Shown here piece after piece: positions 1,965-25,079 of a stretch of 37,363 bases of DNA. The translations under genes were made by a program, and so were the position numbers. Source of the stretch: a virus; the IMG/VR virus record IMGVR_UViG_3300032282_003236, positions 1 through 37,363 of that record, one strand, 5' to 3'. The stretch's first letter is position 1, and each line of letters begins with the position of its first letter. Under the pieces are notes generated by a model. That model made no database searches. It was not told the origin of the DNA and saw only the letters and a list, made by a program, of their open reading frames with translations.

Positions 1965-3227
1965 TTAGAAGTCCCATTGCCTGAATGCCTGCCTCACGTC
2001 ATCACTGCTCAGCACCTCGTCGCTGCACTTCGCCAGATCGTTCAAATCCTTCACCGCCGAGCCATCGGGCAGCATCAGCCCCGGTGTGGTCACCTTCACC
2101 GCCGCCGCCTTGATGTCGCCTCGTCCCCATGCTTGAAGGTTAGCCGTGTCATACACCGGCCCCACGCAAAACGTCTCCACCGCCGCCCCTGCCGCGACGA
2201 GTTGCGCACTCCATCGCGCTGCCGCCTCCATACCTGGAACGCGACGCTTGCTCGCGTTCTCGTCATCCTTCAGCGCGTCGGCATCCACCATGATCCGCAC
2301 CCGCTTCCCCGCAAAATTCGGCAGCACCGACTCCCGCATCCTGTTCCCCGCGCCCAGCATGCACACCACCGACACACGCGAGAGCATCCGGTGCCGATTG
2401 AGAAAATGATACGCTGCGATCATGTCCGGCCCCCCCTCCACCAGCATCACAGCAGGCCGCGTTTCGAGATCATGCGCACCGAGCGGCCAGTTCTTCCCCG
2501 CCGTGCTCCAGGTCTTGATCGCTCCTCGATGTGTCTCGTAGGGTAGATTATCCAGTCGGCGAAACTCCGCCACATGCCGCTTGTCGTCGATGGCACACCA
2601 GCTCGGGAACGTCGCCGCCGCCACGCATGAGTTGTTGTCTAGTTCACAGCCATTTTTCCCATGCCTCTCGCAGCGCGGCATCCACACACCACTGCGTCGA
2701 GGATACAGCGGCCACATCGAAAACGCCATACGCCGGTAACTCCGCGCACACAGCATCACCGCATCCACATCGAGTCCGCGCTTCTCGGCGACCATCGCCC
2801 ACTCAGGGTCGCGTAGGTGACGCAGTGGCGGCAGATCAGGCGGCACATCTTCCGTCACAAGCCGATTTTCCAACACCGGAGCCGCTGGAGCCACCGGACG
2901 CGACCAGGTCACCTCCGCCCCCATCGCCACGCCAGCCATCCGCGCCATATCGGTCAAAGCCTGCTTAAAATCGCAACCCTTAAGTTGCTGCCAGAACGCA
3001 AATATGTCACCATCCCACCCGCATCCATAGCAGTGAAACCGATGTTCAAATCCCTTCTTGCCGCCGATATTGAACGACGGCGACTTCTCCGCATGAAAGG
3101 GGCAGGGAGCCGCGAATAATCCGGCTCCCACCTTCCGAATCCCCGCCACCGCACACCACTCTGCCACCCGTAGTGCATCCACTCGCCCCATGACTTCGAG
3201 TTTAAGATGTGAAAAATCAAAACTCAT
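1965..3227 (-). CDS. DnaG-like phage primase, CHC2 zinc finger plus TOPRIM, 420 aa
   Basis: This primase synthesises RNA primers for phage DNA replication. The N-terminal CHC2 zinc finger is visible: C42, H45, C66 and C69 in CPFH...CYGC, with the typical KSPSF between them. A TOPRIM core follows, with the acidic strand VMLVEGGPDM (E264, D268) and a DxD pair, VDAD (D315, D317). A second Cys/His cluster (C186, H189, C194, C201) sits between the domains. The ATG start overlaps the stop of the preceding gene as ATGA (3224-3227), so translation is coupled. The SF3-like helicase follows 22 bp downstream. Primase and helicase are thus split into two proteins, unlike P4 alpha, where they are fused. 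Confidence 0.88.
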   Translation of the reverse strand: MSFDFSHLKLEVMGRVDALRVAEWCAVAGIRKVGAGLFAAPCPFHAEKSPSFNIGGKKGFEHRFHCYGCGWDGDIFAFWQQLKGCDFKQALTDMARMAGVAMGAEVTWSRPVAPAAPVLENRLVTEDVPPDLPPLRHLRDPEWAMVAEKRGLDVDAVMLCARSYRRMAFSMWPLYPRRSGVWMPRCERHGKNGCELDNNSCVAAATFPSWCAIDDKRHVAEFRRLDNLPYETHRGAIKTWSTAGKNWPLGAHDLETRPAVMLVEGGPDMIAAYHFLNRHRMLSRVSVVCMLGAGNRMRESVLPNFAGKRVRIMVDADALKDDENASKRRVPGMEAAARWSAQLVAAGAAVETFCVGPVYDTANLQAWGRGDIKAAAVKVTTPGLMLPDGSAVKDLNDLAKCSDEVLSSDDVRQAFRQWDF

Positions 3228-3619
3228 GCAGCCCTCCTCATCACAGTCTCAAACGGCGGGTTCTGCTCAACCAGTTCGACGCGGGCATTGAACCACCACG
3301 TTTCTCCCACGGTCGGGTCGAAGCTCCGGATCAGGTAGCGTTCCGGGTATGGCCATTCGCCCTCGATTGCGATTAGTTCACCGAGGGCGCTGTGCAGCCC
3401 CAGCCGGTGACGAGCGAGCCCAAGCAAATGCGTGGATTCCACCACCGTATCGCCGATTTGGATCTGCGGGCGTGGATAGGATTGGAGCATTGCAAGTCGG
3501 GCGAGCCACCAGACATGGCGGGAAGCGGGTTCCGTTTTCGCCTCTGAAGAAGCAGAACCAGCAGGTGCAGCGCAACGGGCAGGATCGCCCGTAGTTGGAG
3601 GTTTGATTTCTTCGTCCAT
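3224..3619 (-). CDS. Conserved early protein of unknown function, 131 aa
   Basis: I do not recognise a family. The protein has a polar, Ala/Pro/Ser-rich N-terminus of about 35 residues. A folded-looking part follows, with aromatic patches (HVWWLARL, GETWWFNARVELVEQNPPFE). No transmembrane segment or metal motif is obvious. The ATG has an AAAGGA Shine-Dalgarno 8 nt upstream, and the stop overlaps the primase start (ATGA), which suggests a role in the replication operon. It lies directly downstream of the truncated end of the integron-cassette insertion, and its leader (CAACCAACATTCAAAGGA) resembles that of the helicase gene, so the native phage leader appears to resume here. Confidence 0.6.
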   Translation of the reverse strand: MDEEIKPPTTGDPARCAAPAGSASSEAKTEPASRHVWWLARLAMLQSYPRPQIQIGDTVVESTHLLGLARHRLGLHSALGELIAIEGEWPYPERYLIRSFDPTVGETWWFNARVELVEQNPPFETVMRRAA

Positions 3620-3634
3620 ATTTTTAGTCCTTTG

Positions 3635-3681
3635 AATGTTGGTTGCGGTCAGCCTGCCCGTTGCTGACCTGATCGTTAGGC
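3635..3681 (-). other. Truncated integron attC site (a)
   Basis: In the minus sense, R'' GCCTAAC (3681-3675) overlaps the TAA stop of the cassette gene. It is followed by a hairpin with GGTCAGC pairing to GCTGACC. The expected R' (GTTRRRY) is missing and the leader of the gene at 3619 begins instead. This marks the 3' end of the inserted array. Confidence 0.55.
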
Positions 3682-3891
3682 GTCATCCCAGTCGCCATGT
3701 TCCAGAGCCTTGATTGCTTCGCGGATCGACTCCATTTGGGAGGCGTTCCACCCTTCCATGTATTCAGTTCGTTTCTCATACGGTTTGTCTCCACCGACCA
3801 CCGACTTCGGATAGATGCCCACGTCGGTCGCGGCATCCAGAGCGGCGCGCAGACGGCGGATGCGACACCACGGCCAATGCCGCCTAACCAC
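3676..3891 (-). CDS. Integron cassette gene 2, small acidic-tailed protein, about 71 aa
   Basis: I do not recognise a named family. The C-terminal half (GGDKPYEKRTEYMEGWNASQ, then an amphipathic helix ending in DWDDA) looks like small phage or mobile-element proteins with a YMxGWNA motif. The stop TAA lies inside the attC core GCCTAAC, a common arrangement in gene cassettes. The proposed start is a GTG at 3891, at the junction of the upstream attC. The frame also stays open back to an ATG at 3942 inside that attC, so the start is uncertain. The cassette runs from the G of GTTAGGC near 3888 to GCCTAAC near 3675, and these end cores are exact complements. Confidence 0.5.
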   Translation of the reverse strand: MVRRHWPWCRIRRLRAALDAATDVGIYPKSVVGGDKPYEKRTEYMEGWNASQMESIREAIKALEHGDWDDA

Positions 3892-3975
3892 GCGCTTCAG
3901 CGAACCCGGCCATCGCATCACTGTTGCAATCCAAGCTTTCATGTGGGCCGGGTCGCTGAGCTTGATTCGTTAGCC
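3882..3975 (-). other. Integron attC site (b), complete
   Basis: In the minus sense, R'' is GGCTAAC (3975-3969). L'' is CAGCGACCCGGCC and L' is GGCCGGGTTCGCTG, which pair with a single unpaired base in L'. R' is GTTAGGC (3888-3882). A single-stranded hairpin with an extrahelical base is the defining structure of attC sites folded for integron integrase. The site separates cassette 1 (upstream) from cassette 2. Confidence 0.8.
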
Positions 3976-4277
3976 CGAGGAATTTCCAGCTTGTAGCGGA
4001 CGCTTCCTTGACGCGCCTCGCTCACATGTTCCTCCCCAAGCAGTTCCGAATTGGCGTAAAACACCCACTCAATCATGTCCCTCAGGTGGACGATACGGAT
4101 TACATTAGGCTCTCCACTGAGCGCGGAGATGGCCTGAACCAAGAAGTGTTCATCGTCGGCTTTTCCGTAGACGAATACCGTGTTCTTGATTTTTCCTTCT
4201 TCATTTCGGATCACTGCCCACAACCCGACAAGGTTGCTCATTGTGCCGTTAGCGTTTATCTTTTTCACTGTTTTCAT
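3939..4277 (-). CDS. Integron cassette gene 1, hypothetical, 112 aa
   Basis: I do not recognise a family. The protein is a compact soluble alpha/beta type, with strands such as LVGLWAVIRN and KNTVFVYGK, then helices around DDEHFLVQAIS and RDMIEWVFY. There is no signal peptide or membrane segment. An ATG at 4277 lies 29 nt after the cassette's 5' core (GTTAGCC at 4306-4300), the usual distance in gene cassettes. A TTG at 4295 is an alternative. The gene ends inside attC (b). The cassette's 5' core GTTAGCC and 3' core GGCTAAC are exact complements, as expected for a cassette that once circularised. Base composition is more AT-rich than in the flanking phage genes. Confidence 0.6.
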   Translation of the reverse strand: MKTVKKINANGTMSNLVGLWAVIRNEEGKIKNTVFVYGKADDEHFLVQAISALSGEPNVIRIVHLRDMIEWVFYANSELLGEEHVSEARQGSVRYKLEIPRANESSSATRPT

Positions 4278-4299
4278 GGTCGTCTGATAATTCAAAGAG

Positions 4300-4346
4300 G
4301 GCTAACAAGACGGTGATCCCAACGGAGACCCGCCGTGTTGTTAAGT
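4300..4346 (-). other. Integron attC-like site (c), short
   Basis: In the minus sense, R'' is ACTTAAC (4346-4340), a perfect RYYYAAC. Short arms follow (ACGGCGG against ACCGT), then R' GTTAGCC (4306-4300). At 47 bp it is shorter than usual, and its arms pair less well than those of sites (b) and (e). It is the upstream edge of cassette 1. Confidence 0.5.
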
Positions 4347-4414
4347 TTAGGGTTGTTTGTGGGTTTGGTTTGCATTCAGGTTTCGCCCTCGGTCTCCGTG
4401 GGATACCTCCCCGT

Positions 4415-4945
4415 TCACGCACCCACCTCAGCATACAGCTTCACCAGCGGTTCCAGCGTCTCGCGCACGCTCTGCTTCACACTCGCAGGCCAGCGGCTCA
4501 TCGGCTCGCGTTCCTGCCATTCGCGGATGAAGCCGAGCGTCCGCTGGCACGCATTCGTCAGCAGCAGCAGTTCATTGCTCTCCCGGCGTTGTGGCACACC
4601 GCGCTCCGCCGCCGCATCCTCACCCGGCAGTGCCAGGGCAAACGTGAGCTGGCTCGCATCATCCAGCAACGCGCACTTGCGTTGCGCTTGCAGGCTCCGC
4701 AGCGCAAAGCGCACCACATCCTCGCGGATCGTTGCGTCCAGTTTGCGCAGCTTGTTCCAGAATTCCTCATCGGTGCGCACATGCGCGTGCTTCTTCCAGC
4801 CTGCGATGTGCTGCCCCATCGCCGCACCCTTGCGCGCCACTTCACAAACATTCTCCCGCAGTAGGTCCAGCCCCTCGGCCACCTCCGCATGCAGTTCACG
4901 AATCTCGGCCTCTTCAGCCATCATAACTTCGACTTGATCACTCAT
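4415..4945 (-). CDS. Early phage protein of unknown function, 176 aa
   Basis: I do not recognise a family. The sequence is strongly helical. An N-terminal acidic helix (AEEAEIRELHAEVAEGLDLL) is followed by KKHAHVRTDEEFWNKLRKL and further helices up to SVRETLEPLVKLYAEVGA. No catalytic or metal motif is visible. The ATG follows the stop of the upstream HTH gene by 2 nt, so the two are probably cotranscribed. Downstream lies the integron-cassette insertion (site c begins about 70 bp after the stop). A role in early replication or control is only suggested by position. Confidence 0.6.
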   Translation of the reverse strand: MSDQVEVMMAEEAEIRELHAEVAEGLDLLRENVCEVARKGAAMGQHIAGWKKHAHVRTDEEFWNKLRKLDATIREDVVRFALRSLQAQRKCALLDDASQLTFALALPGEDAAAERGVPQRRESNELLLLTNACQRTLGFIREWQEREPMSRWPASVKQSVRETLEPLVKLYAEVGA

Positions 4946-4947
4946 AA

Positions 4948-5484
4948 TTAGCGTTTCTTGGGTTCGTTGTTCGTCTCACAGAATTTCTCGCGTGCCTTCC
5001 GGCTGGCCTTGGCCGATTCCTCACCACGCATCCAGCGTGAAGGCTCCAAGTCATTTTGGCGGCAGTAATTCCACGCCGCATTCGACAGGCTCGCTCGGGT
5101 CACCCCCATGCGCCGCGCCATTGCCGCCATCGGCAGTTCCATCGTGATGCCGAGGTCGAGCGCATACGCCATCCCCATCACTTTCACGGCACACGGCGCA
5201 GGCACCAGGGCAAACGCGAACACCTTTTGCAGGAACTGCAAAATACGCCGTTCCCGCTCACTCATGCGCTCCCGCGCCTTCGCCGTGATCTCGGCCACCA
5301 CGATTTGTGCCTCCTCTTTCGTCAGCTTCGCCAGCGACTTCCACAGCAGTTCCTCCCGCAGCTTCGCATCGAGTTCCGCATCCGGTGTCACCACCGCCCG
5401 CTGAAACATCGGGATCGACCCCGCATGCATCCCCGACAGCGCCGCCGTCATCTCATCGCCCGTATGATTCGATTCATGTCTCAT
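4948..5484 (-). CDS. HTH DNA-binding protein, 178 aa
   Basis: The C-terminal third contains a likely helix-turn-helix: MAAMARRMGVTRASLSNAAW (about residues 119-138). Helix one is followed by the turn residues MGVT and a recognition helix. The upstream region has long charged helices (KLTKEEAQIVVAEITAKARE, then MSERERRILQFLQKVFAF), perhaps for oligomerisation. The tail is basic. The start is ATG at 5484, 2 nt after the previous stop; an internal Met at residue 12 is possible. It could be a transcription factor or an origin-binding protein of the replication operon. No specific family is recognised. Confidence 0.6.
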   Translation of the reverse strand: MRHESNHTGDEMTAALSGMHAGSIPMFQRAVVTPDAELDAKLREELLWKSLAKLTKEEAQIVVAEITAKARERMSERERRILQFLQKVFAFALVPAPCAVKVMGMAYALDLGITMELPMAAMARRMGVTRASLSNAAWNYCRQNDLEPSRWMRGEESAKASRKAREKFCETNNEPKKR

Positions 5485-5486
5485 GG

Positions 5487-6068
5487 TCAGTCCTGGAGTT
5501 GCGCCACCAGCCGGGCGAGTTCGGCGCGTGTCACTTCACACCCAGCCCGAAAAAGCACCGTGTGACGGCGTTGATTCACCTCATAGGGCATGTCCTGCTG
5601 GGTGATCGACGGCACCACCTTGCGCTGGCCTTCGATCCATGCGCGCTGCTCGTGGATCGGGCGGATGTAGTTGCGCGCAAACACCTGCTTCACCTGCTCC
5701 CGCGTCATGTGCTGCACTTGCACCTTGATCATGTCCGTCGTGCCGCCCGTTTGCAGCAGCACATCCACCGGCTCCAGCATCAGCCGCTCCTGCTCACTCA
5801 TTGGCAGCCGCTCCAGATGGCGGGCAGCGGGATAGTCCGACAGCAACAACTGCGGATTCACCTGCTTGCGCCCGATCTTCTCCAACGTCGCCAGCACATC
5901 CAGCGGCATCTCCAGATGGTGATTGATTTCCTCCAGCGACAGCCCCTCATCGTCGATCACCTCGACAATGATCTCTCCCGCCTTCACCCAGGCTTGCACC
6001 CCTTGATGAAACAGGTCTTTGATTTGGTTCAGTTTGCTCTGTGTATTTGTAACGGTCAGTGTTTTCAT
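5487..6068 (-). CDS. Conserved early phage protein, 193 aa
   Basis: I do not recognise a family. The protein looks soluble and helical. It has a segment SLEEINHHLEMPLDVLATLEKIGRKQVNP that could be a DNA-binding helical repeat, then a charged middle and a C-terminus RRHTVLFRAGCEVTRAELAR. The ATG overlaps the previous gene's stop (ATGA, 6065-6068), so it is translationally coupled. With the HTH gene downstream it forms a likely early-control or replication-accessory module. Confidence 0.55.
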   Translation of the reverse strand: MKTLTVTNTQSKLNQIKDLFHQGVQAWVKAGEIIVEVIDDEGLSLEEINHHLEMPLDVLATLEKIGRKQVNPQLLLSDYPAARHLERLPMSEQERLMLEPVDVLLQTGGTTDMIKVQVQHMTREQVKQVFARNYIRPIHEQRAWIEGQRKVVPSITQQDMPYEVNQRRHTVLFRAGCEVTRAELARLVAQLQD

Positions 6069-6406: not shown

Positions 6407-6681
6407 TTGTGTTGAAGTTTCCCCACCTGCCGCGCACTCTCCGCCTCGGCCTCTGTGATGATGCGCTCACACGCTAGCCTCCCCACACTCGCCGCCATAC
6501 GCTCAAGGCCCAGCGTCATCTTGTCCGCCGGACTCACATCCGGCATCAGGATCAACGCATCGCAGTGGCCAATGATCTTCTGCCAGTCCGCCATCTTCTC
6601 CCGTGCCAGCAGAATCGCCCGCACCGGTGCCAGCTTAATCTCCCGCGTCGCAGGCGCGTGTTCCCACAAAGCCGCACTCAT
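6388..6681 (-). CDS. Small phage protein of unknown function, 97 aa
   Basis: No recognised family. The protein is mainly helical with several Met and Ala residues (VRAILLAREKMADWQKIIG, PDVSPADKMTLGLERMAASV). The ATG overlaps the preceding stop (ATGA, 6678-6681). It sits in a tightly coupled run of five early genes between 7391 and 4948. Confidence 0.5.
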   Translation of the reverse strand: MSAALWEHAPATREIKLAPVRAILLAREKMADWQKIIGHCDALILMPDVSPADKMTLGLERMAASVGRLACERIITEAEAESARQVGKLQHKWGWML

Positions 6682-7391
6682 ACCTCCACCTCCTTCATGC
6701 GGCGGCGTGAGTCTGCTTTGATCTTCGCCATCACTTCACCGCATGCCTTGCATCGAGTTTTGTGCCACTTCACAGGCAAAGGCACACGGCAGTCCACACA
6801 CACACCCGCTTCACGCAGTCGGCGGGATCGCTCACGGCCATAGGCCGAATTGAATTTCCCATTGATCCGCACCGGCGGCATTCCAGTCAGGTCGATCTCC
6901 ACTGCTTCAGGCTTGCGCTTCTGCACCTTACCCGCCGAAAAACTCGGCAGTCTCAGTGCCTCACTCACGGCATGCATACCCAGTCGTCTTCCCGTCATCC
7001 GCAGCGTCCCCACACGCCCACGGGCCAGACGGATCATCCACCCCCATCCCACCTCAATCCGGCCACGCGTCCCATCCGTCACCAGCGCACACAGCCCCGC
7101 CACTTGCGGGCTGCGCAACTCACGCAACAACCGATCCGCCGCGTCGCACTTCCCCGCCATCTCCTGCGGATGCTCCGCCCACCATCCCGCCGCGCACGTC
7201 AGTGCCAGGTCATCCGCCAGCGTATTCAGCACCGCAGCTGCCAGCAGCCACTTGCCATCACTTGCACAAATATCCGCCGCCGAGATACTCACCCTCTCCA
7301 TCACTGGCTTCAAAAACTCATGATGCCGACCATTCGCCATCCGTCCGCCCTGCCAGCAGTCGCCATCCATTCGCTGTGTCCGATCACTCAT
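6678..7391 (-). CDS. Protein with C-terminal zinc ribbon, 237 aa
   Basis: The last 50 residues contain two Cys pairs (CVDC and CKAC, 15 residues apart) in a basic context, a typical zinc ribbon for nucleic-acid binding. A highly basic tail follows. The N-terminal 150 residues are helical with Trp-rich patches (AAGWWAEHPQEMAGK, RIEVGWGWMIRLARGRVG) and no motif I can name. The ATG overlaps the preceding stop (ATGA, 7388-7391). It may be a transcription or replication accessory factor. Confidence 0.55.
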   Translation of the reverse strand: MSDRTQRMDGDCWQGGRMANGRHHEFLKPVMERVSISAADICASDGKWLLAAAVLNTLADDLALTCAAGWWAEHPQEMAGKCDAADRLLRELRSPQVAGLCALVTDGTRGRIEVGWGWMIRLARGRVGTLRMTGRRLGMHAVSEALRLPSFSAGKVQKRKPEAVEIDLTGMPPVRINGKFNSAYGRERSRRLREAGVCVDCRVPLPVKWHKTRCKACGEVMAKIKADSRRRMKEVEV

Positions 7392-8342: not shown

Positions 8343-8777
8343 ATGAAAACCAAGCCCATCCCCATCGCACTCCCTCACGACTTGCTTCAGCAGGTCGATG
8401 AAGTGCAGCAGCTCACCGGGATGAGTAAAGCCGACATCATGCGGCTCTGCATGCGCATCGGTCTCGTCGATCTCCGCGCTGCCGAGCACGACATTCCAGG
8501 CATCGTAAAACAGATCGCTGACGATAAAGGCATCAGCTTCACCCATTTCGTGAACGAAAAACAACCAACCCCCACGCTAGAAAAAAATAATGCATGTGCA
8601 GTAAATGTCCCTTCAAAATCGCCTTCCCTTGCTTCGCCTGCGGTGAAAACTTCGACTGCCAACATTGTCCCGCTGCCGATGCCGCCCATGCTCAAAACAG
8701 TCATTCACGACAGCCTCAAGGTCGCCGAATCACCCACCCCCTGCGTCGCCACAAAGCGCAAACGCAAAGTCGGCTAA
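8343..8777 (+). CDS. Ribbon-helix-helix transcriptional regulator, 144 aa
   Basis: This is one of only two convincing genes on the plus strand. The N-terminus holds a CopG/Arc-like RHH: strand IPIALPHDLLQQ, helix DEVQQLTG, turn MSKA, helix DIMRLCMRIGLVDLRAAE (about residues 6-45). A disordered Ser/Pro/Thr-rich tail follows, ending in a basic cluster KRKRK. The start at 8343 is preferred over an upstream frame because the RHH begins there. It is divergent from the leftward early operon, with a palindromic operator candidate between them, so it is a candidate lysogeny or early-gene repressor. No CI/Cro-type HTH repressor is evident elsewhere. Confidence 0.65.
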   Translation: MKTKPIPIALPHDLLQQVDEVQQLTGMSKADIMRLCMRIGLVDLRAAEHDIPGIVKQIADDKGISFTHFVNEKQPTPTLEKNNACAVNVPSKSPSLASPAVKTSTANIVPLPMPPMLKTVIHDSLKVAESPTPCVATKRKRKVG

Positions 8778-21924: not shown

Positions 21925-21950
21925 AGAAGGCAAGAGGCAGGAGGCAAAAG
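21925..21950 (+). repeat. Heptad array before the chaperone gene
   Basis: Units AGGCAAG, AGGCAGG, AGGCAAA lie between the 88-aa gene stop and the chaperone ATG. Confidence 0.8.
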
Positions 21951-21957
21951 ACTGGAG

Positions 21958-22224
21958 TTAGATACTGTAATCGGAAGTGATGGCAGATTGGCGGAAGGTT
22001 TCGGCGAATTCGAGGAGCTTTAGCCCCCACTGGCGGCATTGATGACCACCAAGGTGGATGGTGCGGCGGTCATGGCGTGAGAGTGGGAGGGTGAGGTCGA
22101 GATGCGAGTTGCCGTGGTAATGCGCCGCGGTGAATTGGTGATCATGCAGATCCTGATCGGTGATGATGGTGAAGCAGTCATCGCGGCGGGTGTGCATGGT
22201 GAAGGCAGGAGGCAGGAGGCACAA
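21958..22224 (-). CDS. Short duplicated-N-terminus protein (copy A), 88 aa
   Basis: The first 45 residues (starting MHTRRDDCFTI, containing HDHQFTAAHYHGNSHLD) are nearly identical to the start of the 184-aa protein at 24564. The C-terminal 43 residues differ (HLGGHQCRQWGLKLLEFAET). Many His residues suggest a metal-binding or capsid/tail structural piece, but no family is known to me. It closes the 2.37-kb interval between the two repeats. It may be the resident phage gene or a truncated copy. Confidence 0.55.
   Translation of the reverse strand: MCLLPPAFTMHTRRDDCFTIITDQDLHDHQFTAAHYHGNSHLDLTLPLSRHDRRTIHLGGHQCRQWGLKLLEFAETFRQSAITSDYSI
22063..22198. repeat. 136-bp direct repeat, copy A
   Basis: Matches 24430-24565 in the same orientation with 3 mismatches. 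It covers the 5' coding part of the 88-aa gene. Confidence 0.95.
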
Positions 22225-22234
22225 GGCACAAGGC
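22202..22234 (+). repeat. Heptad array before the 88-aa gene
   Basis: Units AGGCAGG, AGGCAGG, AGGCACA, AGGCACA, AGGCCGG lie between the cargo genes and copy A. Confidence 0.85.
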
Positions 22235-22248
22235 CGGAGTTGGTTTAA

Positions 22249-22959
22249 TTAACTGTTAGGCGATTTCACGCATCGCACGATTGCCGCCGCAGGGTAAAAA
22301 TCAAACGTGTCGGAATCTGGCATCTTGGGGTGACTCACAGCAAACTGGAACCCCCGCAACCTGTCGCAAATAGCGAGGAATCGCGGAATGCTCCGGCAAC
22401 GGTCGAAGTGGTATTCAAAAACCAGCTTGCGAATGCCGATGAAATCGCAGGCTTCTAAAATCTCAATTTCACTGCCCTCTATATCCAGCTTGACCGCGTT
22501 CACACGGTCAAGCAGCGGTTGAATTGATAGCACTTGAACGGAGATGCTAGACCGTCCGCGAATGATCGCGAGCGTGTGCCGGTATTTGTTCTTATCGCCG
22601 TTGCAGACGAAGAGGGCGGCTTCGCCGCCCGCCACGGCAACGGCGGCTTCGATGACTTCCACGCTGCGACCGCTCACGTTCTGCTTGAGCATGGCGACGT
22701 TTTCGGGGTGAGGCTCAAGCGCTAAAACCCTTGCCCCCTTCGACGCCGCGAGCAGTGAGAAAGAGCCGATATTTGCGCCCGCATCCAGCCACACGTCCTC
22801 CGGCTCGATTGTAATTCCGCCTCGGTCATAGACGTGAGTCTTGATGACTTCGACCGCCGCCGTTTTGTCCGTCGTATCTGGCCGGATTTTCAGCGTCAGG
22901 CCGTTGATGGTGAGTGGCTCAGTGTGCATTTGCTCTTGTGCGGTTTCTTGCGGTTTCAT
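22249..22959 (-). CDS. FkbM-family SAM-dependent methyltransferase, 236 aa
   Basis: Transfers a methyl group from S-adenosylmethionine, in this family usually to a sugar or other small hydroxylated acceptor. FkbM motifs are clear: motif I VWLDAGANIGSFS (56-68), ALEPHPENV (about 80-88), the acidic VKLDIEGSEIEIL (about 155-167) and a later KLVFEYHFD. The ATG at 22959 overlaps the upstream oxygenase by 41 nt; an alternative Met 10 codons later is possible. The gene runs into the cassette core GCCTAAC just before its stop. It probably modifies a virion or cell-surface glycan along with the neighbouring oxygenase; the substrate is not determined. Confidence 0.85.
   Translation of the reverse strand: MKPQETAQEQMHTEPLTINGLTLKIRPDTTDKTAAVEVIKTHVYDRGGITIEPEDVWLDAGANIGSFSLLAASKGARVLALEPHPENVAMLKQNVSGRSVEVIEAAVAVAGGEAALFVCNGDKNKYRHTLAIIRGRSSISVQVLSIQPLLDRVNAVKLDIEGSEIEILEACDFIGIRKLVFEYHFDRCRSIPRFLAICDRLRGFQFAVSHPKMPDSDTFDFYPAAAIVRCVKSPNS
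22255..22261 (-). other. Integron cassette 3' core, truncated attC (d)
   Basis: GCCTAAC at the end of the methyltransferase gene exactly complements GTTAGGC at 23940-23934, the start of the same cassette. No paired L arms follow, so the rest of this attC is missing. Confidence 0.5.
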
Positions 22960-23707
22960 TTTGCTGCGCTCGCTCCAACTCTTCTTGCGGCGGCAGGCAT
23001 TTCCAAATCTGTTTCATGGTGTAAAAGACAACGGTGATTCGATGCCCCTTTTCATCAAGTTTGAACGGCGTGACGCCGTGAAGGAATCGCTGACCATCGA
23101 AAAAAAGTAATGACGAATCGGCCAAGCGTATCCCAGCGTTGATTTCTGGCAGAACAAGGTCGCCGCCCTCGCACCCGCGCTTGAATGTCAGCATGGCACT
23201 CCAACGGCCAGGCACATTGCCTGCATCGAAATGATAGGGAAGTTGGTTGTTGAAGTTGATGATTCCGCTGGTGTAGCAGCCAAACTGATAAGCAGGATGT
23301 AATGTCTTGGCATCCTCTGCTTGCATCTTAGCGAGCAGCGGATTTTCCTTCAATTGCTCATTGAAGATTTGCTCAGCGAATTTCAGCAGCGCGGAATGTA
23401 ATTCGGGATCATCGCGTTCGATTGTTGCCCACGAACAAAAATCAGCGCGTTGCATTGGTCGTCTCGGCAATGTTCCGAAGACGCGGCTTCGGGATTGCAT
23501 CCCATTTGCGCGAACATTTTTTGAGAACTTCAACCGCAAAAGCGGCTCTCTTAAATGTTCGCAATCTGGAGCCGCCACGTATGCCACATCCTTGATTCCA
23601 TCCACGGTCACTGATTGCCCGAGTGAGACCCATTGGGCGGCGTCGCTTTCTTGCGCGAGCCGATGCCTGAATTTAGTGGGGCTGATTTTACGTTTTACGA
23701 GATTCAT
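22919..23707 (-). CDS. 2-oxoglutarate/Fe(II) oxygenase-like protein, 262 aa
   Basis: The double-stranded beta-helix iron triad is visible: H159 and D161 in PYHFDAGNVPG and H210 in FFDGQRFLHG. R223 (GHRITVVFYT) can bind 2-oxoglutarate. Upstream residues are helical and downstream sequence is a charged tail, typical of hydroxylases of this superfamily. The substrate cannot be read; hydroxylation of a glycan, lipid or protein side chain fits with the FkbM neighbour. The ATG at 23707 overlaps the preceding small frame by 20 nt. The gene lies in the third integron-type cassette. Confidence 0.75.
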   Translation of the reverse strand: MNLVKRKISPTKFRHRLAQESDAAQWVSLGQSVTVDGIKDVAYVAAPDCEHLREPLLRLKFSKNVRANGMQSRSRVFGTLPRRPMQRADFCSWATIERDDPELHSALLKFAEQIFNEQLKENPLLAKMQAEDAKTLHPAYQFGCYTSGIINFNNQLPYHFDAGNVPGRWSAMLTFKRGCEGGDLVLPEINAGIRLADSSLLFFDGQRFLHGVTPFKLDEKGHRITVVFYTMKQIWKCLPPQEELERAQQNETARNRTRANAH

Positions 23708-24005
23708 AGGACTCCAGCAGTTTAATCAAAGTGGATGGGTGGGAGGTTGTTGTTTCAGTTTGGGCAACGGCATCAAGTCTTGCGATGATCGCTGACAATT
23801 CCGCGCGGCGGAAAACAAAAACAAGCTGCCCGATTTCAGACCTGTGCAACGAGTCCTTTCGAGCCGTGCTTGATCTGGTTTCATCGAGTGCCGTGGCTTC
23901 AACGTCTGCGGCAAAATGGTCGTGGAACAAATCGCCTAACAAAGCGCTGCATGGAACGCCGCTGGCCATCTCTGGTGAATCGGGAGCGTGTGAGGCGGCG
24001 TCCAT
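23688..24005 (-). CDS. Small cassette-encoded frame, coding status uncertain, up to 105 aa
   Basis: The first 22 or so codons lie within attC (e), so the listed start is probably wrong. Within the cassette a TTG after the GTTAGGC core could start a protein of about 80 residues. The C-terminal half has a plausible helix (ELSAIIARLDAVAQTETTTS, STLIKLLESYE), and the frame ends inside the oxygenase start (20-nt overlap). It may be a leader or a small partner of the oxygenase, or an unread frame. Confidence 0.35.
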   Translation of the reverse strand: MDAASHAPDSPEMASGVPCSALLGDLFHDHFAADVEATALDETRSSTARKDSLHRSEIGQLVFVFRRAELSAIIARLDAVAQTETTTSHPSTLIKLLESYESRKT

Positions 24006-24022
24006 GATCTTATTCGTTACCC
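23934..24022 (-). other. Integron attC site (e), complete
   Basis: In the minus sense, R'' is GGGTAAC (24022-24016). L'' CATGGACGCCGC pairs with L' GCGGCGTTCCATG, leaving one unpaired base. R' is GTTAGGC (23940-23934). The arm lengths, imperfect R'' and single extrahelical base fit an attC hairpin. The R'' overlaps the end of the 184-aa gene, and R' starts the oxygenase/methyltransferase cassette. Confidence 0.75.
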
Positions 24023-24564
24023 GACGGTTTTAGAATGTAGTCGCGGGAGTGTGGGGTGGGGTGGTCGGGGTCATCGGGCGGCGGGGGTGTGGCGGGGGGG
24101 ATGCCGTTGGCGAGGAGGAGGGGGTTGAGGTGTTCGAGGAGCCAGAGGACGAGGTATTTGGTGGTGTCGCGCCAGTCGTTGGGGCCGAATTTTTGGGCGT
24201 TGTGAATCCACTCGTCGGTGCTTTGATCGTATTTTTCGGCGGTGAGTTCGGCGGCGAATTCGGCGGGGTAGTCGGTGGGGAGCCAGAGACGCCAGCCGGG
24301 GGCACGAGTGAGCTTGTCATTAAGCTCATGCTGCAGCGGATGATCTTTGAACCAGCGGACATTGAGCTTGCCGAGGTCGCAGATGTCTTCGACGTAGCGG
24401 AGCATTCGCCCGCGTGCGGTGTTCTGGGAGCGGCGGTCGTGGCGTGAGAGTGGGAGGGTGAAGTCGAGATGCGAGTTGCCGTGGTAATGCGCCGCGGTGA
24501 ATTGGTGATCATGCAGATCCTGATCGGTCATGATGGTGAAGCAGTCATCGCGGCGGGTGTGCAT
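24010..24564 (-). CDS. Phage or cassette protein with duplicated N-terminus (copy B), 184 aa
   Basis: Residues 1-45 match the N-terminus of the 88-aa protein at 22224, at both DNA and protein level. The rest is distinct, with aromatic-rich segments (PGWRLWLPTDYPAEFAAELT, DTTKYLVLWLLEHLNPLLLA) and a Pro/Asp-rich tail. Its stop lies in the first core of attC (e). No family recognised. It may be a tail-chaperone-region protein, and the duplication suggests recombination. Confidence 0.55.
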   Translation of the reverse strand: MHTRRDDCFTIMTDQDLHDHQFTAAHYHGNSHLDFTLPLSRHDRRSQNTARGRMLRYVEDICDLGKLNVRWFKDHPLQHELNDKLTRAPGWRLWLPTDYPAEFAAELTAEKYDQSTDEWIHNAQKFGPNDWRDTTKYLVLWLLEHLNPLLLANGIPPATPPPPDDPDHPTPHSRDYILKPSGNE

Positions 24565-24565
24565 G
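24430..24565. repeat. 136-bp direct repeat, copy B
   Basis: Matches 22063-22198 with 3 mismatches, 2367 bp away. Together they enclose the methyltransferase/oxygenase cassette. Confidence 0.95.
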
Positions 24566-24578
24566 CGGGCGGAGCAGG

Positions 24579-24608
24579 GAAAAGGCAGAAGGCAAAAGGC
24601 AAAAGGCG
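24579..24608 (+). repeat. Heptad array before the 184-aa gene
   Basis: Units AAGGCAG, AAGGCAA, AAGGCAA, AAGGCGA upstream of copy B. Confidence 0.85.
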
Positions 24609-24659
24609 AACGTCCGATGCACCGAGCAACGACCTAGCCGTTGTCGGTGATCTCTTGGT

Positions 24660-25079
24660 TCACCGCTTCAGCGTCTTCAAAATGTGCTCGGTGGCTTTCT
24701 TGGAATCGTGCGGGCCGATGAGGCCGAGCTTGCCGCCGCGACCACGGATGACTTGCATGGGCATGTTTTGCTTGATGTGGTCGATGCAGCTCACCATGTT
24801 CATGAACGCGCACTTGATGTAGGCGAGGGGGTGCTCGGGATTGGCTTCATGCCACTGCGGGTCGTTCCAAGCGGCGATCATCTCGTTGGTCTTGTATTTG
24901 CCGCAGATGCTTTCGCGTTCAAGATACCACGTTTGTTTCGGGGTGCCGTCGCGGGTTTCGCCGATGTAGATTTGGGGGCCTTCGGCAGGCTGAATGCCGA
25001 GAGTGACGAGGGCAGCAAAAAGCCGCGTGTCGTTCAGGGAGTGAGGACGGGCGGCATGAGTGAGGTTTTCTTGGGACAT
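24660..25079 (-). CDS. Tail-region protein of unknown function, 139 aa
   Basis: No family recognised. Soluble, helical, with GETRDGTPKQTWYLERESIC and a basic tail IGPHDSKKATEHILKTLKR. It lies after the putative tail tube gene, so it may be part of the tail assembly chaperone set. The ATG at 25079 has no clear Shine-Dalgarno. It does not overlap its neighbours. Confidence 0.5.
   Translation of the reverse strand: MSQENLTHAARPHSLNDTRLFAALVTLGIQPAEGPQIYIGETRDGTPKQTWYLERESICGKYKTNEMIAAWNDPQWHEANPEHPLAYIKCAFMNMVSCIDHIKQNMPMQVIRGRGGKLGLIGPHDSKKATEHILKTLKR

Follow-up and report, generated by a model that had tools for sequence, protein, structure and literature searches.

Integrons are familiar as platforms with which bacteria capture genes. 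They are also found in phages, from which Qi et al. 2023 (PMC9892861) report integrons and CALINs, some of the phage attC sites being active with IntI1, and the insertion of cassettes at non-classical sites is known in bacterial genomes (cited in PMC12901181 and PMC11023631). The DNA analysed in this work (hereafter, the window) is a 37.4-kb IMG/VR record, possibly incomplete, of a tailed phage, and a preliminary description had proposed that integron cassettes are inserted in its replication operon with their genes along the operon direction. The results support that proposal and add two features absent from the description: the cassette genes run against the polarity of their attC sites, and there is a second insert at 22.3-24.0 kb.

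The stretch from about 3552 to 4420 of the window is a real integron cassette array (Table 1). Its extent had been given as 3635-4346, which is too short, the outer cores being GCAGAAC at 3552 and GTTCACG at 4413, whilst the complementary inner cores are where they had been placed (GTTAGGC 3675 with GCCTAAC 3882, and GTTAGCC 3969 with GGCTAAC 4300). The RYYYAAC/GTTRRRY form ascribed to these cores holds as to complementarity and fails as a strict consensus, GTTAGCC and GGCTAAC being one base off each; a strict-consensus attC search missed site (b) because GTTAGCC breaks GTTRRRY. Exact attC pattern scans gave matches at about the frequency of chance (by our own estimate), so match counts were not used as evidence and only some loci were taken from them. 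The sites were scored with a covariance model (R1) trained on 10 attC sites adjoining integron integrases, of which Verrucomicrobial genomes supplied eight, the viral contig G009 two and the window none; 94% of the pairs in its alignment are standard and its covariation exceeds that of shuffles. With filters off and both strands of the whole window scanned, every R1 attC match is on the + strand, the top − strand score being 13.3 bits (E 0.12), and the attC matches anticipated for 3600-4400 were obtained for (a), (b) and (c), at 26.3 to 69.9 bits. The expected folding of the bottom strand was seen for (b) and (a) and failed for (c), which, like (d) of the second insert, folds no better than shuffles; therefore the case for (c) is made by its R1 score and its complementary cores, and that for (d) by its R1 score and the empty site described below.

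Site (b) is identical at 84 of 95 positions to an attC of the cellular integron L155, which adjoins an intact Verrucomicrobial intI and has forward cassettes. Its asymmetric arms (left GCGCTKCAGCGAAC, right GTCGCTGAGCTT) set the polarity to the window's + strand, and the opposite polarity, guessed at one stage from gene direction, was rejected on the match to L155. Two bases of its L'' arm, T and A, are unpaired, and its cellular relatives likewise have two, not the single one of the preliminary description. That all these sites are chance or native phage hairpins, such as terminators, has next to no chance of being right and was rejected: the poor folds of (c) and (d) would suit it, but not the R1 scores, the near identity of (b) to a cellular attC, the empty sites, or the absence of any R1 match (E up to 0.5) from the insert-free relatives L112, L113, L114, L162 and L165. 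An Rfam scan of the window found nothing, and neither did a DNA search of it against named phages. As in CALINs, the attC sites have complementary R and L boxes with extrahelical bases, at least two of them lie within 4 kb with no integrase nearby (three in 0.9 kb), and insertion is precise to the crossover; the window holds no intI and attI with the array, as a complete integron would.

Table 1. Features of the two inserts and their surroundings in the window (strand of genes, polarity of cassettes and attC sites).
Feature	Coordinates	Strand or polarity	Details
Phage DNA primase, next in operon	1965..3227	-	PF01807, phrog_6444
Possible further cassette	3260..3675	+	GTTCTGC at 3260 exactly complements R'' of attC (a)
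attC (a)	3552..3681	+	R1 26.3 bits, E 4.6e-5; bottom-strand fold z -2.2; R'' GCAGAAC 3552, within start of next phage ORF (3224-3619); R' GTTAGGC 3675
Cassette i	3676..3969	+	crossover to crossover; copy in phage L015/G013
ORF P0001, hypothetical, 88 aa, cassette i	3676..3942	-	start within attC (b), stop at cassette 5' boundary
attC (b)	3882..3975	+	R1 69.9 bits, E 2.4e-16; fold z -3.6; R'' GCCTAAC, R' GTTAGCC
ORF P0002, hypothetical, 112 aa, cassette ii	3939..4277	-	stop within attC (b)
Cassette ii	3970..4413	+	cores GTTAGCC 3969 / GGCTAAC 4300
attC (c)	4300..4420	+	R1 match 4301-4420, 29.6 bits, E 6.5e-6; R'' GGCTAAC 4300, R' GTTCACG 4413; adjoins TGA stop of upstream phage gene 4415-4945
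FkbM-type methyltransferase, cassette X	22249..22959	-	PF05050, E 7.9e-11
Cassette X	22256..24016	+	no insert at this site in L162 or L165; another cassette at the same base in L163
2-oxoglutarate/Fe oxygenase-like protein, cassette X	22919..23707	-	PF12851, E 1.6e-7 (just under curated cut-off); phrog_6059, E 5e-40
Small hypothetical ORF, 105 aa, cassette X	23688..24005	-	start within attC (d)
attC (d) of cassette X	23934..24022	+	R'' GCCTAAC, R' GTTACCC; R1 29.8 bits, E 6.1e-6
Large terminase C-terminal fragment, from another phage group	24010..24564	-	full-length homologues in L162-L166
Short attC-like site	24605..24664	+	R1 15.8 bits, E 0.025; fold z -3.0

The insertion itself can be followed by comparison with other phages. 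The copy of cassette i in L015 (IMGVR_UViG_3300027736_000008) has 6 differences in 294 bp, identity stops at G^TT on each side, and beyond it unrelated sequence follows, with another gene as neighbour; all four differences that fall in P0001 but not in the attC loop at the ORF start are synonymous. The cassette genes are absent from L111, L113 and L114, which cover the slot and have helicase and primase in common with the window, and no relative carries them as native genes, in agreement with the insertion first proposed. P0002 has a coding score of 22.2, as opposed to 4.1 for the best ORF on the opposite strand, with no relatives in 388 Verrucomicrobiota genomes, phages, plasmids and GTDB contigs; the flanking proteins of 131 and 176 aa have none in IMG/VR. 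To judge from its terminal core, 3260-3675 is possibly a further cassette holding most of ORF 3224-3619, the alternative being a chance 7-mer. Relatives of the phage helicase occur in 23 of the 388 Verrucomicrobiota genomes, the best match reaching 38% identity, which makes this phylum a plausible host and no more.

The second insert, cassette X, lies at the 3′ end of the terminase of another phage group, a fragment of which the window carries within a mosaic segment absent from its relative L006. Its flanks join at the crossover as GTTGGTTTAATTAACTG^TTACCCGACGG; L162 has the same site without insert (GTTGGTATAATTAACTG^TTGGACGACGG), L165 is likewise empty, and the cassette found at this very base in L163 encodes a DNA methyltransferase-like protein. 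Both the FkbM gene of the window and the cassette gene of L163 end on phage-derived N-S-stop codons past the junction. The empty site is G^TT, which would suit a non-classical G^WT site (attG), but it resembles an attI, having TTAACTG^TTAGGC in common with the attI of L155, and the likeness suggests that the terminase 3′ end may work as one. The short attC-like site at 24605 falls at the stop codon of a conserved tail gene (24660-25079) and is 81% identical by BLAST to an attC of L164. As for the same terminase end in other phages, L164 has an attC or attC-like site at 5414-5473 and L166 a weak attC-like one at 3079-3144 (14.4 bits, E 0.12), with no gene before the next phage gene in either. 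A direct duplication of 181 bp, 90% identical, flanks the terminase fragment and cassette X (22060-22234 and 24427-24607), and short repeats of the AGGCAAAAGGC type occur at 21926-21950, 22201-22225, 24573-24610 and elsewhere in the window.

In both regions, 3.6-4.4 kb and 22.3-24.0 kb, the junction between cassette and phage DNA falls at the attC crossover G^TT. Junctions of this kind are the product expected from recombination by an integron integrase. The window lineage could, in principle, have received its cassettes by ordinary recombination with an integron-bearing phage and no integrase action of its own, an explanation that we hold to be improbable. The near-identical cassette i of L015 would fit it, and the mosaic character of the second segment, with its foreign terminase fragment and its duplication, indicates that this segment probably moved as a block. 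However, cassette i lies between unrelated flanks, and homologous or illegitimate exchange would hardly be expected to stop at G^TT at both of its ends.

An ORF running along the attC direction is usual for a cassette, though not an absolute requirement. All three cassettes of the window are reversed in this respect. To see how general this is, polarity was taken from R1, and a composition score trained on those phage proteins that have homologues decided the coding strand. Of the 41 cassettes in ten Verrucomicrobial arrays, 35 were forward, one was reverse and 5 were ambiguous, whereas nine phage or viral sources, the window's three cassettes included, gave 0 forward, 34 reverse and 2 ambiguous. 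Fisher's test gives p 6e-19, and still 3e-17 when shared arrays are discounted and the viral count falls to 28; almost all of the cellular sample comes from Verrucomicrobiota. The composition-based scoring, which used wider segments, was chosen after the outcome of an earlier count was known and is thus not blind. That count, by ORF length alone, gave 10 forward, 9 reverse and 12 ambiguous in viral arrays, and was undecided because short ORFs span the attC borders and got cut. All viral cassette genes with Pfam matches (C5 methylases, RNA ligase, PAPS-reductase-like and FkbM) are reversed. Universal reversal in phages was rejected, since the ORFs of two published ones, TJE1 and Rctr41k, are forward.

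As for the enzyme, the window record encodes no integron integrase, only a generic phage integrase far under the cut-off. Its relative L114 (contig G007) carries a 170-aa truncated integron integrase directly upstream of the primase, the middle of which, and hence the first catalytic arginine, is missing. Used as query in a similarity search, this protein brought up full-length IntI on 16 other viral contigs, all above the curated cut-off. One of them, G425, is a distant relative of the window phage, and its GpA terminase and portal identify it as a tailed phage; its IntI lies between a ParB-like gene and the primase, retains the catalytic residues, and reaches 47% with its best match among plasmids and 43% with that among named phages. 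Two attC sites, at 4344 and 4671, are directed away from this intI, and an attI is presumed from position. Portal and tape-measure genes are also present in G429. In a tree with 58 cellular integrases, the 16 viral IntI group together as one long-stemmed clade (support 100/100) to which none of the cellular ones belongs; the viral contigs are metagenomic and were retrieved by similarity to one truncated member, a sampling that favours a single clade, so that closure of the clade is not proven. Reversal, in turn, is not confined to this clade, since the reversed set includes G009, whose IntI is outside it, and G014, with no IntI match. In Virus Rctr41k (L283, KX853513.1), the gene annotated as xerD (4680-5678) matches integron integrases, with 39% identity to the G425 IntI, and is followed by two attC-like sites (6641-6767 and 8415-8545).

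The preliminary description had attributed the capture to a host integrase, and this does not stand as worded: the operon slot holds a full IntI in G425 and a truncated one in G007. Given that related phages encode IntI, in one case adjoining the primase, a host enzyme is not the sole option, and the phage-encoded one is at least as likely to have captured the cassettes. It could still be that a Verrucomicrobial integrase captured them during infection at non-classical phage sites, the IntI of the relatives being irrelevant. This version we regard as rather unlikely, although it agrees with the lack of IntI in the window, with the IntI carried by 109 of the 388 sampled Verrucomicrobiota genomes, with the host-type appearance of attC (b), and with the attG insertion of cassettes already published for bacterial genomes (Loot 2024). 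The content of the operon slot speaks against it, and so does gene direction, the sampled host cassettes being forward and those of the window reversed.

We favour the following mechanism, in which an IntI, either of the relatives' phage clade or of the host, would act on the folded bottom strand of the attC of a circular cassette and join it to phage DNA at a GTT site, be it another attC, an attI-like or a non-classical site. Where phage intI is present, it has the usual geometry, divergent from the array; reversed ORFs would therefore place array, intI and replication genes in one operon of a single direction, with no need for a cassette promoter, expression presumably coming from operon read-through. 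The cargo is swapped among phages at the primase slot and after the terminase gene of the other phage group, and, with DNA methylases and an RNA ligase among the viral cassette genes, it probably helps against host defences. As a whole, this explanation (insertion by phage-clade or host IntI, ORFs reversed to suit the operon, cargo exchanged) seems to us likely. The IntI of related phages, together with the reversed cassettes, suggests a phage group with a cassette-swapping system of its own. Going further, a group of tailed phages might possess its own integron, with an IntI clade of its own seated in the replication operon, reversed-ORF cassettes that form a distinct pool and need no cassette promoter, and an attI-like site after the terminase, swapping counter-defence and DNA-modification genes during infection; we see the chances of this wider reading as evenly balanced.

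If phages own an integron lineage whose cassettes are fitted to a one-direction operon, cassette exchange is also viral, and gene direction may divide the cassettes into two pools. Phage cassettes have been published already (2023, PMC9892861), whilst the IntI clade, the reversed cassettes and the reused site appear to be new; neither a phage IntI clade nor reversed cassettes are described in the open-access literature searched, and the accessible text of PMC9892861 has no analysis of ORF direction relative to attC polarity. The phage CALINs in that text resemble the window in consisting of attC arrays, most of them lacking an integrase, in occurring in tailed phages and in having methyltransferase cargo; they are scattered cases with a typical forward array (TJE1), in contrast to the IntI clade, common operon slot and reversed ORFs found here. 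Another difference from them is that one site occurs here as empty and as two differently filled alleles, a natural experiment in itself. Insertion at attG, as cited by later papers from Loot et al. 2024, similarly joins a cassette to a GTT site that is neither an attC nor the integron's own attI, but in a bacterial chromosome, whereas the site after the terminase is in phage DNA, is reused by different cassettes and reads TTAACTG^TT, as the attI of L155. The chromosomal integrons of Verrucomicrobia (e.g., L155, in genome G032) share with the phages a near-identical attC type and an intI divergent from the array, and differ from them in their IntI, about 45-50% identical to that of the phages, and in the direction of their cassette genes.
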